A stretch of DNA of 64,000 nt, from contig CANTVF010000003.1 of assembly GCA_947852905.1 (NCBI GenBank), forward strand, positions 186,001-250,000, given 5' to 3'. The DNA comes from an uncultured Tidjanibacter sp. (GTDB lineage Bacteria; Bacteroidota; Bacteroidia; Bacteroidales; Rikenellaceae). Of this stretch, positions 48,912 through 56,343 are shown piece by piece. How positions within the stretch are numbered: position 1 is the stretch's first letter; each line of letters begins with the position of its first letter. Under the pieces are notes generated by a model. The model worked only from the letters and a program-made list of their open reading frames with translations. It was not told the DNA's origin and did no database searches. The position numbers and the translations under genes were made by a program.

Positions 48912-50366
48912 ATGAAAAGGATTTTTGCTATTACAGGTACATTCCTGTTTGCAGCGGCCGTTTTAGCCGGTTGTAACAAGGTGGAAACCGACTATCAGTA
49001 TCTGAGGTTGGATATGGCTAACGTTTCGTTCCTCGGGGACGGCAATGCGCCGGTGACAATAAAGGTTTCCGCCACAGGAGCATGGGAAGTGGAGCCCTCG
49101 GTATCTTGGCTCAAGATCGGTGATAAGACCGATGGCAGCGTTACCGTTACCGTGGACGATAACGATACCGAAGCCGAACGCGAGGGCAAACTCGTGTTCA
49201 CGAGCGGAGAAGTTACCGAAGAGCTTCCCGTAAACCAGTTGCCTATGGCGAGCGGCGGTTATGTGTACCGTTCTCCGGTTTTTCTGGATATGGGACTTGC
49301 GATGTCGCCTAACGGCAAGTATGTGGTCGGTGAGGACAATGTGCTGCAGGATGACGAGACTTTCAATTTCGATGTTTACATTTACGATCTCGATACCGAC
49401 GAATATCGTGTCGTGGGATCGTATCCGCAATCTCTGTTCACCTTGCAGAAGCCGATGTGCATTACCGACCAGGGACTCGCTTTCATAAGCGATACGCAGA
49501 GCCGTACCGTAGGTATAGACCTCGATGGCAATGTTATCTATCCCGAGGGAGTTGACGAATTCCAGGGCAGTTTCAATGTGCAGGGTTCCGGTGACGGTGG
49601 CAGGATTCTGGTGGGTTATCAGATGGACAGGCCGGGCGGTAGGTATTTACCTATCATTTCCGAGAACGGTGTGGCGAGACAACTCGAAATACCTGAATTG
49701 AATGCCCATGACGAGCCTTTGGTTACTGGTGTCATGGCGCGTGGTTGCAGCCACGACGGCAAAGTGATTTACGGCAGTTCTTGGGACAATATGGAGAACA
49801 GTACGTGTTATTGGAAGGCCGATGACGGTTACAAATTCCATTGGGCTGCCGCTTCGGATCGTACGAAAGAACAGGTGGAAACTATAGATGCTTCCGACCA
49901 GCTCATAACCGTTACTCAGATTTCCGGACCGAAAACCTCGGCGGAGTTGACATGCATAAGTCCTAACGGTAAGTGGTTGGCCGTGACGTGGCAGCGCGAA
50001 TATTATACAGAAGGGGCGTTCGGATACAGTCAGGTGAGGTTCCCCGCTTTCATAGACCTCGAGAACGACAAGGCTTATCTGTTCGAGGATCTTCCCGGCG
50101 GAGCCAAACATGTGACCGACGACGGTATAGGGTTCACTATCAACGGTCTTATGACCAATAGCGGACAGGTGGTAGATATAGAGAACGGTGTTGTGCTCGG
50201 CAATATGTATGATTGGATTCTGGATAACTATGGTATAGCTACCGGTCCCGGCAGCATAGTGTATATGACACCGGACAAGCAGAGATTTCTGAGTCTGTGG
50301 ATTGCAGACAGTGCCGGCGGAGGCAAGACCGCTCACTGGTTCGTTGCTCCGAGGCCTGCAAAATAG
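48912..50366 (+). CDS. BACON-domain lipoprotein with C-terminal propeller-like repeats (paralog 1)
   Basis: MKRIFAITGTFLFAAAVLAGC lipobox, BACON domain (SFLGDGNAPVTIKVSATGAWEVEPSVSWLKIGDKTDGSVTVTVDDNDTEAEREGKLVFTSGEV), SPNGKYVVG / SPNGKWLAVTW repeats. Confidence 0.82.
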   Translation: MKRIFAITGTFLFAAAVLAGCNKVETDYQYLRLDMANVSFLGDGNAPVTIKVSATGAWEVEPSVSWLKIGDKTDGSVTVTVDDNDTEAEREGKLVFTSGEVTEELPVNQLPMASGGYVYRSPVFLDMGLAMSPNGKYVVGEDNVLQDDETFNFDVYIYDLDTDEYRVVGSYPQSLFTLQKPMCITDQGLAFISDTQSRTVGIDLDGNVIYPEGVDEFQGSFNVQGSGDGGRILVGYQMDRPGGRYLPIISENGVARQLEIPELNAHDEPLVTGVMARGCSHDGKVIYGSSWDNMENSTCYWKADDGYKFHWAAASDRTKEQVETIDASDQLITVTQISGPKTSAELTCISPNGKWLAVTWQREYYTEGAFGYSQVRFPAFIDLENDKAYLFEDLPGGAKHVTDDGIGFTINGLMTNSGQVVDIENGVVLGNMYDWILDNYGIATGPGSIVYMTPDKQRFLSLWIADSAGGGKTAHWFVAPRPAK

Positions 50367-50438: not shown

Positions 50439-50817
50439 CGATATGACTATGTCTTAGAATTTTATGCAGTTTAAAACGAATCGGTTACGGCATGTGCGGT
50501 GAGGTATGAAATAAATAGTGTATTCCTGACGTTTTTCGTAATATGTAATGCGTGTTCCTGAATATTGTGTAGAGATATTTGCAACAGGAAATATACATGT
50601 CTTATTGGCATATAATATCAATCTTTGTTCATATTAGGAATAAATAATTGCTATTACGTATTCGGTTAGATATTTTTTATAAATTTGCAGGCCGTTATTA
50701 CAATCGCATTTCTGTTTTGTAATGGGAATGATATGGTGTAATTTAATAATTTGTTGAGATGTGTTTCAAAATATATAATATCACCTAATTTTAAACAGAA
50801 CCTATTTATTGAAGATG

Positions 50818-50822
50818 AAAAG
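50818..50822. repeat. Left copy of 5-bp putative target site duplication AAAAG
   Basis: ATG|AAAAG|TATAATCGCGCAATTC; matches AAAAG at 54880-54884. Confidence 0.7.
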
Positions 50823-50832
50823 TATAATCGCG

Positions 50833-50849
50833 CAATTCAAATGTACAAA
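50833..50849 (+). repeat. Left subterminal inverted repeat of the element
   Basis: CAATTCAAATGTACAAA. Confidence 0.8.
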
Positions 50850-50852
50850 GTA

Positions 50853-50879
50853 GTGAACTAAAATCATTTTTTAGTTCAC
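50853..50879. repeat. Hairpin near the element left end
   Basis: GTGAACTAAAA...TTTTAGTTCAC, 11-bp perfect arms. Confidence 0.7.
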
Positions 50880-51159
50880 AAAACAACGTACTGATATACA
50901 GTTAAATCTATTATTGTGGTTGCTGTGTTACTTTTCCCTCGGTTTTGTTGTGAACAAAATATAAACCTATGACTTTCAGCGTTGTATATTTTTGTGAACA
51001 ACACAAGAAAAATCAAATGTACATTTTGCAAAATCGTTTAAGTTGCCTTATATCAGCAATTTACGGGAAAATATAATTATCGCCGTCAACTGCATAAAAA
51101 AGCGCGGATTATTGAAATTATATTCATTATCCGCGCTCGGTTGTGCGTTGTGGCGCATT

Positions 51160-51336
51160 TTACATATCCATGTGCGTATTAATATAGGCCAAATAGGTGC
51201 GGTAACTTATTCCCATAACTTTACGTATATAGTTTCGCCATACCGCCTTGTAGCACTTCGATTGGTTACCAGGCTCGTAATACTTCTGTGTAAGTTCATG
51301 AGCCATTTTTATACGTTGTATTGTACTTGCATGCAT
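51160..51336 (-). CDS. Small 58-aa ORF downstream of capsid gene (not in ORF track)
   Basis: Minus-strand translation MHASTIQRIKMAHELTQKYYEPGNQSKCYKAVWRNYIRKVMGISYRTYLAYINTHMDM*, Y/C/W-rich and protein-like; 17 bp downstream of the capsid stop; followed by a GC-rich hairpin (GCGCGGAT...ATCCGCGC, 51098-51135 region). Confidence 0.65.
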   Translation of the reverse strand: MHASTIQRIKMAHELTQKYYEPGNQSKCYKAVWRNYIRKVMGISYRTYLAYINTHMDM

Positions 51337-51353
51337 GGCTTATTCTCCTTGTT

Positions 51354-52226
51354 TTATGCGTTATCACTGACTATTGCACCCACTCCCTTTCCGCGGATAG
51401 GTAGGGCTACAAAACGTTTGTCAAAGCCTACGATCGTGGCGCGTTCTTTCGGATCGTCCTCGCTGGCATACATGTAGATATCCCCGTCCGCTTTCATCAC
51501 CTCTTTTGCATAAAAGGCCACGCTTGCGAACTGTGCCGTTTTCTCGCTGTCGAAAGGCACTTTTGTAAGCACCGTTTCAACTGTTTTGTATGTAGGCATT
51601 TGAGCGAATGAATAACAGCCGAATCCCGCAAATTTGAACGGCTCGCCGTCCTTTATATTGGTAAGTTCCTTGAACAACTCAATATCTTCCAACAACAAGT
51701 CGGAAACATGTTTCGGATGCAGGACAATGTAACGTTCTTCCAATGGTATTTCCGCCTCGTCAAACCGTTCTTTCAGGGTGAGGATATCCGCAAATGTCAT
51801 GCGTTTACGTCCTCCCGTGGCTAATCCCGTGGTAAGTATTACGGGCGTGTCTATTGTGTCATTGGTTGGGGCATATGCGTGTATAGCTTTCATTGCCACA
51901 CTTTTGCGCAATGTTGCTCGGTGCTGCCTTATCACGCTTTCCAATTTGTCGTAACTATACTCGATTGCATCGGGACGGCGCACGATAGTGTTTTCCGTCT
52001 CGAACTTGTCCAATACTATTTCGTTGTCCGAATCATCGCGACCAACCGATTTAATCGGATAGGTAGTATTGTTTATCAATACTTTCGGATCAATACCCGC
52101 TGACGCAATGTGCAGACGGTCGTTTTCCACGAAAGCGGAATAATTCACGGGCTTTTGCAGGAAGCTGTCATCAGGGTAAAAGCCTTCTAAAATCTGGCTT
52201 ATCCAAATCTCCTTATTTATAGCCAT
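51354..52226 (-). CDS. Putative phage major capsid protein
   Basis: AINKEIWISQILEGFYPDDSFLQKPVNYSAFVENDRLHIASAGIDPKVLINNTTYPI... and ASVAFYAKEVMKADGDIYMYASEDDPKERATIVGFDKRFVALPIRGKGVGAIV look like a capsid protein; located directly after a prohead protease gene. Confidence 0.72.
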   Translation of the reverse strand: MAINKEIWISQILEGFYPDDSFLQKPVNYSAFVENDRLHIASAGIDPKVLINNTTYPIKSVGRDDSDNEIVLDKFETENTIVRRPDAIEYSYDKLESVIRQHRATLRKSVAMKAIHAYAPTNDTIDTPVILTTGLATGGRKRMTFADILTLKERFDEAEIPLEERYIVLHPKHVSDLLLEDIELFKELTNIKDGEPFKFAGFGCYSFAQMPTYKTVETVLTKVPFDSEKTAQFASVAFYAKEVMKADGDIYMYASEDDPKERATIVGFDKRFVALPIRGKGVGAIVSDNA

Positions 52227-52238
52227 TCAACGTTTAAT

Positions 52239-53330
52239 TTATTGGTTTTTAGTTTTGTGTTCTTTCTCTTTTTGAAGCAGTTCACGGAATATATCGGGGT
52301 GTTCCCTCAAGTATTCGGGGTTGTTTTTCCTGTACCATTCAAGCGTATGCGGCTCTATGCTTACGCCTGTTTCCGCCTTAACAAGCCGTGCGTACAATTC
52401 TCGGTTGTTTTCCAACTCCTTAGGAGCGAATTTGCGGTAATCCGACAGTGTCCAGTTTGCACGGTCTTTTGTTCGGTTTATCAAATCGGTTGGCTTTATT
52501 GCAGGGCGCAACGTGAAAAGCAATTCTTTCAGCGTCTTAATTCCCATTTCAGCCCCTATGCGTTGATATATACCAGTTTCACAGCCTAATATTTGCCCTT
52601 TCCCTGTGGCGTCTTGTAATAACCTGTTTATTTCGGGTTCCTGTGCTTTACGCTGTGAATCCACATAGGCCATGAAAGCCGCCGGATTTCCTTTGGCCAT
52701 TAGCCGAAAATTATCACGTTGTACTTTTTCTATATATCCGTGTTGTATCGCGTTGTCTACCGCCGTATCCGCCGTTTCTTTGCCGTTTAAGGCGTTTTTA
52801 ACGGCTTGGAGTATGTCCGCTTCGGTTGCGGTATTTTCAAGCCCTAAAAGCTGAATTAAGGCCGTTTTCAGGTCTTCAGGTGTATCGTTATCCAAATCAT
52901 TGAGTTTATAAACATATCCGCCCGAACGTCTGTACAGTTTCACTGCATTTGAATTGCTCGGTATATCCACTATCGAAACCTCAATTAACCGGCATTTAGT
53001 GACCGTTTGAACTCCGTTTAATTTTCCGGTGGCTATCTCTTCAATACCGATTGAGACACAACGCAAAAAACCGTTCTCTACCTGTTTTTTAACAGTTGCG
53101 GCAAGTTCCGTGCTGTCATCGAATACGGCATCGCCGAGTAGCCGCGAACCGTCCTTACGGATGTTCTCCCAGCGGCCTATTACATTGCCGTCCCTGTTAT
53201 GCATGTAAAGCATGACGGGATTACGCTCAAATGTCGTTGTGTCTATACCCGAAGTAAGCACGACAAACCCGTAACTGTTTACACTTTCATCGGATAGTAC
53301 AAAAGTTATTCTGTCGTTTTCTGTTTCCAT
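52239..53330 (-). CDS. Phage prohead protease (HK97 S78 / Mu-I-like) with C-terminal scaffold-like region
   Basis: RITFVLSDESVNSYGFVVLTSGIDTTTFERNPVMLYMHNRDGNVIGRWENIRKDGSRLLGDAVFDDS...VENGFLRCVSIGIEEI...CRLIEVSIVDIPSNSNAVKLY is a typical prohead protease arrangement. Confidence 0.85.
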   Translation of the reverse strand: METENDRITFVLSDESVNSYGFVVLTSGIDTTTFERNPVMLYMHNRDGNVIGRWENIRKDGSRLLGDAVFDDSTELAATVKKQVENGFLRCVSIGIEEIATGKLNGVQTVTKCRLIEVSIVDIPSNSNAVKLYRRSGGYVYKLNDLDNDTPEDLKTALIQLLGLENTATEADILQAVKNALNGKETADTAVDNAIQHGYIEKVQRDNFRLMAKGNPAAFMAYVDSQRKAQEPEINRLLQDATGKGQILGCETGIYQRIGAEMGIKTLKELLFTLRPAIKPTDLINRTKDRANWTLSDYRKFAPKELENNRELYARLVKAETGVSIEPHTLEWYRKNNPEYLREHPDIFRELLQKEKEHKTKNQ

Positions 53331-53500
53331 TCGCTAAACATTTAATGCAAAGGACTATAAAACCCAGATATCCGGCAAAAAGAATGTAAAATATTTACAC
53401 TCTTTTTATGTCAAATTTCGACACTTTGCAAATTTGCGGCATGAATATTTTGCAGGTACAAAAGAAACGGTTACTTTTGTGTATCCTAAATCAAAGTATT

Positions 53501-53680
53501 ATGTATTCCTTTCGAGTAAATCACAGAATTATAGCCACTTATGGTGTGGGTAGCGGAAACGCCCCAGCGCCTCAATACTTTGAGCGTAGGACACCTACGA
53601 GTGGCTTTTATTTATTTCCTAAATCAAAGTATCATGGACAACTCGGTAAATGTACCCGCACTGGTGTACGGAGATGTTAA
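53501..53680 (+). CDS. Small ORF of unknown function inside the element (low support)
   Basis: MYSFRVNHRIIATYGVGSGNAPAPQYFERRTPTSGFYLFPKSKYHGQLGKCTRTGVRRC; start preceded by the same leader as the next ORF. Confidence 0.3.
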   Translation: MYSFRVNHRIIATYGVGSGNAPAPQYFERRTPTSGFYLFPKSKYHGQLGKCTRTGVRRC

Positions 53681-53906
53681 TTTTCAAGCGTTTATAAACT
53701 GCAAATTGACGCTGAAAAACGGGGAACAAACGGTTTTATGGGCATTCGTACCCAAAGGGGTTTCTTTTGAAGACATAGCAATGGGCTTAAATAAAGCCCT
53801 CGAAGCATCCGGAATCGTACACAGCGCAGAAAAAGAGGTTTATACATTACGCAAGAATAAACTTTTATCGCTGTTCTGTTGTTTCAGTAAACGCATTTTC
53901 AAATAA
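53634..53906 (+). CDS. Small hypothetical protein inside the element
   Basis: MDNSVNVPALVYGDVNFQAFINCKLTLKNGEQTVLWAFVPKGVSFEDIAMGLNKALEASGIVHSAEKEVYTLRKNK...; start reassigned to the internal ATG. Confidence 0.55.
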   Translation: MDNSVNVPALVYGDVNFQAFINCKLTLKNGEQTVLWAFVPKGVSFEDIAMGLNKALEASGIVHSAEKEVYTLRKNKLLSLFCCFSKRIFK

Positions 53907-53958
53907 CCACCATTCAGCCCCGTGGTAATCCTGCGGGGCTTTTATAGTTATATATCAA

Positions 53959-54441
53959 ATGAATAGAAAAGCAACAATAATAGAACTACATAAACAAGGC
54001 GTATCGCCTGGCGATATTGCTACGATTTTGGACGTGTCAAAGCGTTATGTGTATCGGTGTCTTGAACCGATAAATGAAGACAACAAGAAATTGACTGTAA
54101 GCAATTACATAAAAGCCGTTAAACGAGGATATGACACGAAAGAAGATTTAGCCCGATTTTTCCATGTTACCAAGAAAAAACTATTTGAGTTTGAGAAAGA
54201 GCACGATATTTTGCAGTCGCTTGCAGAATACTACTACATACAGGGTAAGAGCCTGCCGGAAATAGGACAAATATTACACATGCGTATCGGATCAATACGG
54301 ATTCCATCGGATTTACCCACATTAAACGAAGTGCGCCGCGATTTAAATATGATATTGGATACTTATGCAAAAGTAGCGGAACATGGGGATGCCGAAACGG
54401 TACGATATAATGACCTGAAAAGGATAGTCAGTAAATTATGA
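53959..54441 (+). CDS. Helix-turn-helix DNA-binding protein of the element
   Basis: NRKATIIELHKQGVSPGDIATILDVSKRYVYRCLEP (HTH), second HTH-like YYIQGKSLPEIGQILHMRIGSIRIPSDLP. Confidence 0.72.
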   Translation: MNRKATIIELHKQGVSPGDIATILDVSKRYVYRCLEPINEDNKKLTVSNYIKAVKRGYDTKEDLARFFHVTKKKLFEFEKEHDILQSLAEYYYIQGKSLPEIGQILHMRIGSIRIPSDLPTLNEVRRDLNMILDTYAKVAEHGDAETVRYNDLKRIVSKL

Positions 54442-54461
54442 ATGCTTAAATATGTCCCCCC

Positions 54462-54496
54462 CAAAAACCTAAATCGCGAAAATTCAAATGTACAAA
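54462..54496. repeat. Internal near-copy of the element's left end
   Basis: CAAAAACCTAA followed by ATCGCGAAAATTCAAATGTACAAA, nearly identical to left end ATCGCGCAATTCAAATGTACAAA (50828-50849), same orientation. Confidence 0.75.
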
Positions 54497-54853
54497 TACT
54501 TAAAGTGTTGTTTGCTAAATATTTATTGCCCCAAATTAAGAACCTAACCCCGAAAGAGGACGCAATTTTAATCAGCTTGCAAAAACCTAACTACCAAATG
54601 CAGCCCAAATGACGACATTTGCCCCGGAACACATCGTTAATACCAATGGTGTTGACAGGCCAAAATACAAGCAAAATACAGTCTGAATTCACGTAAAATA
54701 CAAATATAAGCTAACTTAAACGGTCGAAAATTAAAGCTAAATTAAAGCAAATTCACATTTCAAAGCCTCGTTTTTGGGGCTTTTTTCGTTTATACGCCCT
54801 CTTTAAATGCACTGTAATAAGGGTATTTAAGCCTGTTTTCCAAAAACCTAACT

Positions 54854-54870
54854 TTTGTACATCTGAATTG
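54854..54870 (-). repeat. Right subterminal inverted repeat of the element
   Basis: TTTGTACATCTGAATTG = reverse complement of the left repeat with one mismatch. Confidence 0.8.
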
Positions 54871-54879
54871 TGCGCCCGT

Positions 54880-56343
54880 AAAAGGATTTTTTCTTTTGCA
54901 AGCGCATGCCTGCTCGCAGCAGCGGCGCTGACAGGCTGTAGCGAGGTGGAGACCGACTATCGGTATATCAACCTTGATATGGCTAACATTTCGTTTACCG
55001 GTGCAGGGAATATGCCTGTGACCATAAAAGTTTCGGCTACCGGAGCGTGGGAAGTGGAGCCGTCGGCATCGTGGCTTACGATAAGCGACAAAACCGATGG
55101 AAGCGTGACAGTTACCGCTGCCGATAACGACACTGAAAACGAGCGTGAAGGCAAACTCGTGTTTACCATGGGCGATGTTACCGAAGAACTTCCCGTCAAC
55201 CAGCTGCCTATGGAGACTGGAGGTTATGTATACCGTTATCCATCACATTTGGATATGGGGCTGGTGATGTCTCCCAGCGGTAAGTATGTCGGCGGTGAGG
55301 ATCAGGTACTTCAGGATGACGAAACGTTCAACTATCAGATCTGGATTTTCGATCTCGATACCGATGAATCGCGTATGGTTGCCGAAATACCGAATGCGAT
55401 GTACTTTCTGCAGCAGCCTCAGTGTATTTCCGATAATGGTGTCATATTCATAAGCGAACATCATAATGGAGGAACCATAGGTATCGACCTCGACGGAAAC
55501 TTTGTGATTCCTACAAAACCTGAAGGTTTCCAGAATGCTCCGAACGTACAGGGTACTTCCGCCGACGGTAGCATCTGGGTAGGTTACGGGCGCAATGTCA
55601 GCGGCGATGCCGGCATGTATTATCCGATAATCTGGGTGAACAACGAGGCCGAAACGTTGCCTATACCTGATAAGAATGCTCACGGCGCTCCCGTATCGAC
55701 CGGCTTTATGGCTCGCGGTTGCAGTCACGACGGTAAGGTTATCTACGGCAGTTCTTGGGACAATATGGAGAACAGCGCATGTTTCTGGAAAGACAACGGT
55801 AACGGTTACGAGTTCCATTGGGCTGGCGAACCCGACCGTGACCTTCAGATAGTGCCGTCTCTGGATGCGGAGGACAATCCTATCGAAGTTGCGCAGCTTT
55901 CCGGTCCGAAAATTTCTGCGGAACGTACTAATATAAGCCCGAACGGCAAATGGTTGTCCGTAACGTGGTGTAAGGAAACTTATGACGGTAATGGCGGTTA
56001 TTCCGAAGCCAGATTCCCGGCATTCATCGATCTCGAGACTAACAAGGCTTATCTGTTCGAGGATCTTCCCGGCGGCGCAAGACATGCGACGAATGACGGC
56101 TTGGGCTTTACCATAGACGGACTTATGACCAATAGCGGTAAGGTTATCGATATAGAGAACGGTGCTGTGTTGGGCAATATGTACGATTGGATTAAGGACA
56201 ATTACGGTATAGCTACCGGTCCCGGAAGTATCGTTTACATGACTGCCGACATGCAGAGGTTCCTGAGCCTTTGCCTCGCTTCGAGCGTATCCTCGGATGC
56301 TAAAACCACCCACTGGTTCGTAGCTCCCAAACCTGCTGAATAG
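54880..56343 (+). pseudogene. BACON-domain lipoprotein paralog 2, interrupted at codon 3 by the element (possible TTG-started chimera from 54868)
   Basis: KRIFSFASACLLAAAALTGCSEVETDYRYINLDMANISFTGAGNMPVTIKVSATGAWEVEPSASWL... closely parallels paralog 1; its native ATG lies at 50815 beyond the element. The body is an intact reading frame. Confidence 0.75.

Follow-up and report, generated by a model that had tools for sequence, protein, structure and literature searches.

The 4,058-bp element at positions 50823-54880 of the window (the whole stretch analyzed here, 64,000 nt of contig CANTVF010000003.1 of an uncultured Tidjanibacter sp., GCA_947852905.1) belongs to a family of elements in Bacteroidales, apparently undescribed, that are probably non-autonomous transposable phage satellites, moved by the transposase of a helper phage, forming a shell of their own and using the packaging and tail proteins of the helper. 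Comparison of the loci shows that this family has been inserted at many unrelated sites, with phage-type ends and 4-bp duplications of the target. As is characteristic of satellites, phage structural or packaging genes are retained under selection and the virion gene set is incomplete. No description of transposable satellites was found in the open PMC literature.

The earlier note, made from the sequence alone, had read in the element a prohead protease, a major capsid protein (MCP), a 58-aa ORF, small ORFs and a helix-turn-helix (HTH) protein, and all of these are indeed present. On the minus strand lie the 58-aa ORF (51160-51336), with homologues in nearly all of the satellites and in full Mu-like phages, the MCP gene (51354-52226; 290 aa) and the gene for a 363-aa protease with a Mu-I-like C-terminal region (52239-53330); divergent from these, on the plus strand, are a 90-aa ORF (53634-53906), with homologues in some satellites, and the gene for the HTH protein (53959-54441; 160 aa). 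By eye, the 90-aa ORF resembles a small gene found between transposase B and GemA in compact self-transposing relatives. The identities assigned by profile to the protease and the capsid protein are firm: the protease matches Pfam Peptidase_S78 and Mu-like_Pro above the cut-off, as well as phrog_80 and phrog_328, and the MCP matches the major head protein family phrog_267 (E=2e-16), as do all 10 of its aligned relatives, and a solved MCP, 9jwb_A (E=4.7e-4). The identity of the MCP is based on sequence profiles because its AF2 model is poor (pLDDT 51.7) and its Foldseek matches, mostly phage capsids, are not significant. Also as the earlier note had stated, there is no transposase (neither DDE transposase A nor ATPase B), integrase, terminase (checked for the large subunit, TerL), portal or tail gene within the element; transposase A was not found in the host genome either. 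Since the element has a shell gene and Mu-like ends but encodes no enzymes for jumping or for filling a shell, it is probably a parasite of Mu-like viruses.

Whether the HTH protein is a small terminase is about an even bet, which rests on position and on a weak profile match. Its gene stands beside that of the protease, located and oriented as the small terminase gene is in full phages, and hhalign matches it weakly to small terminases (92% probability, E=5.5e-7); HMM cross-hits between the two groups have E values of 2e-4 and 0.007, and one homologue of the HTH protein matches phrog_2538. The protein itself matches HTH_23, and its AF2 model (pLDDT 87.8) has tandem HTH units followed by a C-terminal helical hairpin, for which a Foldseek fold search returned nothing significant. 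Some satellites have no HTH protein.

The element interrupts, in its third codon, a lipoprotein gene (start codon and first bases at 50815-50822, plus strand, with the ATG at 50815; resuming at 54881-56343), the second of two paralogous lipoprotein genes that stand in tandem, the first being at 48912-50366. Excision of the element in silico regenerates ATGAAAAGGATTTTTTC, the start of the lipoprotein gene. The terminal inverted repeats are near-perfect over 50829-50849 and 54854-54874. The 'right' end, of the TATAATCG type (TATAATCGCGCAATTCAAATGTACAAA, 50823-50849, plus strand), has the same core as full Mu-like phages, and the 'left', GGG-type end reads TACGGGCGCACAATTCAGATGTACAAA inward (54854-54880, minus strand); the end score is 32, as against 22 or less in 20 shuffles. 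A further copy of the repeat, AATTCAAATGTACAAA, lies inside the element (54481-54496, plus strand) and is a putative transposase site.

The earlier note had placed the element at 50823-54879, with transposition-generated boundaries marked by inverted repeats and a 5-bp direct repeat. The start and the inverted repeats stand, whereas comparison with relatives moves the end to 54880 and reduces the duplication to the 4 bp AAAG, at 50819-50822 on the MCP side and 54881-54884 on the HTH side. AAAAG is present on both sides, the fifth matching base being due to chance; the extra A is part of the end of the element (TACGGGCG...). Phage Mu duplicates 5 bp of its target. A duplication of this type was rejected in favor of 4 bp, given that, when ends were picked by the quality of the inverted repeats and their likeness to consensus cores, blind to the duplication, an exact 4-bp duplication was found at 17 of the 22 loci scored (the window included; chance expectation of a 4-bp match, 1 in 256) and a 5-bp duplication at none. 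At least one of the five loci that show no exact duplication, L064, is a short contig.

When bacterial genomes and viral contigs were scanned on the basis of the capsid, 22 further loci emerged, in hosts of several Bacteroidales families, each with the protease and with an MCP that is 65-96% identical. None has a gene for transposases A and B, TerL, portal or tail, as judged from blastp seeds within 10 kb and from how small the elements are once delimited (3.9-4.7 kb, and 5.7 kb in one case). Independent insertions with the same ends, for which the earlier note had proposed a search, were thus found, with 4-bp duplications and unrelated flanks, no flank homology being seen among the 16 insertions compared. 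Purifying selection on the capsid gene is strong, with dN/dS values of 0.02-0.10 (0.06-0.36 for the protease) in pairs with measurable dS. In the MCP tree, the satellites form one clade (93/92) and the compact relatives that encode A and B another (99/95), with full phages outside both. Two satellites, L057 and L058, share a protease-MCP-58-aa core that is 98.4% identical, and their HTH regions and right ends are unrelated, as if a putative helper-recognition part had been exchanged as a module. At another locus (L002, 3816-12980, an insertion type shared with L084), the satellite adjoins early genes (ParB-like, AAA ATPase, helicase and recombination) of an apparently different, non-Mu prophage.

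The termini of Peternella_1 and of P. gingivalis phage006a have the same cores as the satellites: a TATRGGGG-like one at the terminus nearer the repressor and TATAATCG at the opposite terminus; AAACGAA-like repeats come next. Prophages of 34,269, 35,110, 35,266 and 40,149 bp likewise combine ends of this kind with 4-bp duplications. Bounding repeats of 4 bp are on record for the transposable phages of P. gingivalis (PMC10367356). Among viral sequences, 111 stretches contain the end motif, many of them located on contigs of 33-42 kb; small IMG/VR contigs with the motif were considered as new satellites and rejected, as they look like phage ends. Transposition of the satellites through phage-type ends is well supported by these sequence comparisons. 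Moreover, the correspondence extends to variants of the ends: that of L062 is identical to that of the G269 phage and that of L071 to that of the G173 phage (21/21 in both), the right end of L068 matches the G275 phage at 24/24 positions, and L067 matches the same phage over its terminal 26 bp (96%) and at an internal site (27/27) at similar depth, a site common to L067-L069 and this phage. Overall, L067-L070 group with G275, and L055 and L083 with G018. Such matches between satellites and particular phages are expected if a particular transposase must recognize the satellite. L062, L071 and L073 also carry an extra small gene, of the phrog_17154 family, which the G173 and G269 phages have as well; of these carriers, L071 and L062 are those whose ends match the two phages, respectively.

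The suggestion of the earlier note that the element might be mobilized in trans is therefore sustained by ends that match full Mu-like phages variant by variant, and falls short for the window's own variant, which is of the CAATTCARATGTACAAA type: no phage with it was found in 268 genomes of the family or in IMG/VR. Across the family, recognition sequences are shared with putative helper phages, and the window's variant is one with no cognate found. Nor did the helper prophage that the note had proposed to seek in the same genome turn up, as no Mu-like transposase or terminase of such a kind was found there. A full phage, by the presence of TerL, resides in only 3 of 20 satellite hosts, and in G269 and G275, where the ends of both are known, the end variant of the resident phage differs from that of the resident satellite.

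Overlooked in the earlier note was a c4-2 antisense RNA (RF02944; 53532-53609, plus strand; 63.9 bits against a gathering threshold of 41, E=5e-14), located downstream of the promoter region and ahead of the 90-aa/HTH operon. Its loop, AATACTTTGA (53574-53583), is complementary to two targets on the plus strand, one at 53491-53500, directly 5' of the ATG of a leader ORF (53501), which co-varies in 12 satellites, and one at 53624-53632, directly 5' of the ATG of the 90-aa gene (53634). The window element thus has the conserved c4 fold and a loop complementary to leader targets, the features of c4-type RNAs; a leader c4 RNA with complementary targets is the arrangement that underlies c4 immunity in P4 and P1/P7. 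Rfam detects c4-2 in the window and in seven further satellites and a motif search in 12 loci, including the window and L068, for 18 satellite loci overall. Loop and targets co-vary, their complementarity being element-specific, with a mean of 9.4 nt as against 5.2 in mismatched pairs (12 loci), and at the level of sequence this shows an antisense circuit in the satellites. The RNA scored below the gathering threshold in 7 full-phage loci and in 8 other loci (compact elements and a P. gingivalis phage). We rejected c4-2 as a marker exclusive to satellites, because it also adjoins integrase and replication genes of apparently ordinary prophages. These loci (L264-L271), in which the RNA lies near integrase- or replication-type genes, are apparently ordinary prophages or islands of the same bacterial family.

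How might such an element be propagated? In the resident state, the c4-type RNA would silence the HTH/90-aa operon, its loop pairing at the beginning of both the leader ORF and the 90-aa gene; possibly, this operon includes a small-terminase-like packaging specificity factor. With an active Mu-like helper in the same cell, the helper's transposases A and B would act on the ends of the satellite, moving or copying it. The satellite would contribute a protease/scaffold and a capsid protein of its own, and the resulting shells, which may be smaller, would be joined with the portal, large terminase and tail of the helper, which may itself be excluded or out-competed. Packaging may begin at the GGG-type end; hankyphage is packaged by the headful from its repressor end (PMC12135933). 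In this reading, the satellite would be encapsidated. An explanation that dispenses with this step, and to which we give a distinctly smaller though real chance, is that the element is a helper-mobilized intracellular transposon, itself unpackaged, whose capsid protein and protease serve to spoil the capsids of the helper, as a dominant-negative anti-phage module. The conservation of MCP and protease and the absence of portal, TerL and tail would suit such a module, and capsid interference is a known strategy of satellites (PMC10690885, PMC12409344). However, unlinked insertions across bacterial families are easier to explain with packaging, and strong selection on the whole of protease and MCP exceeds what interference would need.

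The compact relatives appear, from their gene content, to be a second class, self-transposing and capsid-encoding. They carry repressor, Ner, transposases A and B, often GemA, protease, MCP and a short ORF, and neither terminase nor portal (L003, L004, L006, L008, L010, L012, L074, L075, L077, L078, L080, L081 and L090). Some have a single tail gene after the capsid gene, either a baseplate hub (phrog_4930) or a tail collar gene (L010, 8803-9763; L012, 7144-8103; L007, 3350-4294; L076, 11505-12386). L010 itself, 8,344 bp long, sits inside a gene for glycerate kinase and shows a duplication of CATG. It is very unlikely that these elements, rather than full phages, are the main mobilizers of the satellites. 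Their MCP clade is sister to that of the satellites and L010 has TATAGGGGG/TATAATCG ends with its 4-bp duplication, but satellite-type ends were not seen in most of them, their ends having mostly stayed undelimited, and it is the full phages that match the satellites by end variant. We give equally little weight to a domesticated shell, that is, an encapsulin-like compartment spread by a transposon to the benefit of the host: an HK97-type capsid protein that comes with neither portal nor terminase would fit, yet the maturation protease is kept, no cargo enzyme is conserved, and c4 antisense control and helper-matched ends indicate phage biology. Least credible of all, and rejected for the family, is the other reading offered by the earlier note, a one-off remnant of a Mu-like prophage after internal deletions, since, for all that the ends and the gene neighborhood (HTH/TerS, protease, MCP) are as in full phages, there are more than 20 relatives at unrelated sites with the same core genes and similar size, exact ends in 17 independent insertions, a separate MCP clade, the low dN/dS of the capsid gene, and no c4-2 RNA found in the Mu-like phages tested.

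We therefore favor the non-autonomous satellite and, with slightly less assurance, see in it a lineage that parasitizes transposable phages through their own ends, in which the transposase of the helper stands in for integrase and replicase, all that the satellite contributes is the shell (protease and MCP) together with a packaging/regulatory factor, and the c4-2 RNA sets immunity. If so, few capsid-encoding DNA satellites would be as small as these (about 4 kb), and exchangeable ends and HTH modules would let one capsid core change helpers. Satellite families described in the papers surveyed integrate or replicate with enzymes of their own, or else shelter within virulent helpers, and those encoding capsids bring portal and terminase; an element able to make do with transposon ends, two shell proteins (protease and capsid protein) and one antisense RNA would be a much smaller route to phage parasitism. 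The family would also extend satellites to Mu-like phages and to Bacteroidota, suggest what one group of c4-2 RNAs does, and offer a concrete system for the hijacking of capsid size and packaging specificity.

With the Mu-like phages of Bacteroidota (the Winoviridae phage Peternella_1, the P. gingivalis phages and, by the literature, hankyphage) the satellites share ends, the 4-bp duplication, a protease-MCP pair oriented divergently to the terminase side and the 58-aa protein family; unlike these phages, which measure 33-40 kb, they have at about 4 kb no repressor, A, B, Gam, TerL, portal, tail or lysis genes, and they carry the c4-2 RNA. As in P4 and in P1/P7 c4 immunity, a c4-type leader RNA has complementary targets upstream and downstream, although the RNA is of a different family (c4-2). 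P4 is far larger than the satellite, has an integrase and a replicase, and has no MCP. Like the satellite, MiniFlayer and MulchRoom have capsid genes of their own; unlike the window element, they encode terminases and portal, depend on virulent helpers, have direct terminal repeats and are not transposons. The cf-PICIs also encode their own capsid protein and protease, but in addition have portal, connectors, both terminases and HNH (PMC10690885), whereas the satellite stops at protease and MCP and lacks an integrase. Finally, as with MITEs or hitcher elements, the helper's transposase would move the satellite by recognizing its ends; in contrast to MITEs, which have no protein genes (PMC11389934), the satellite encodes a shell.
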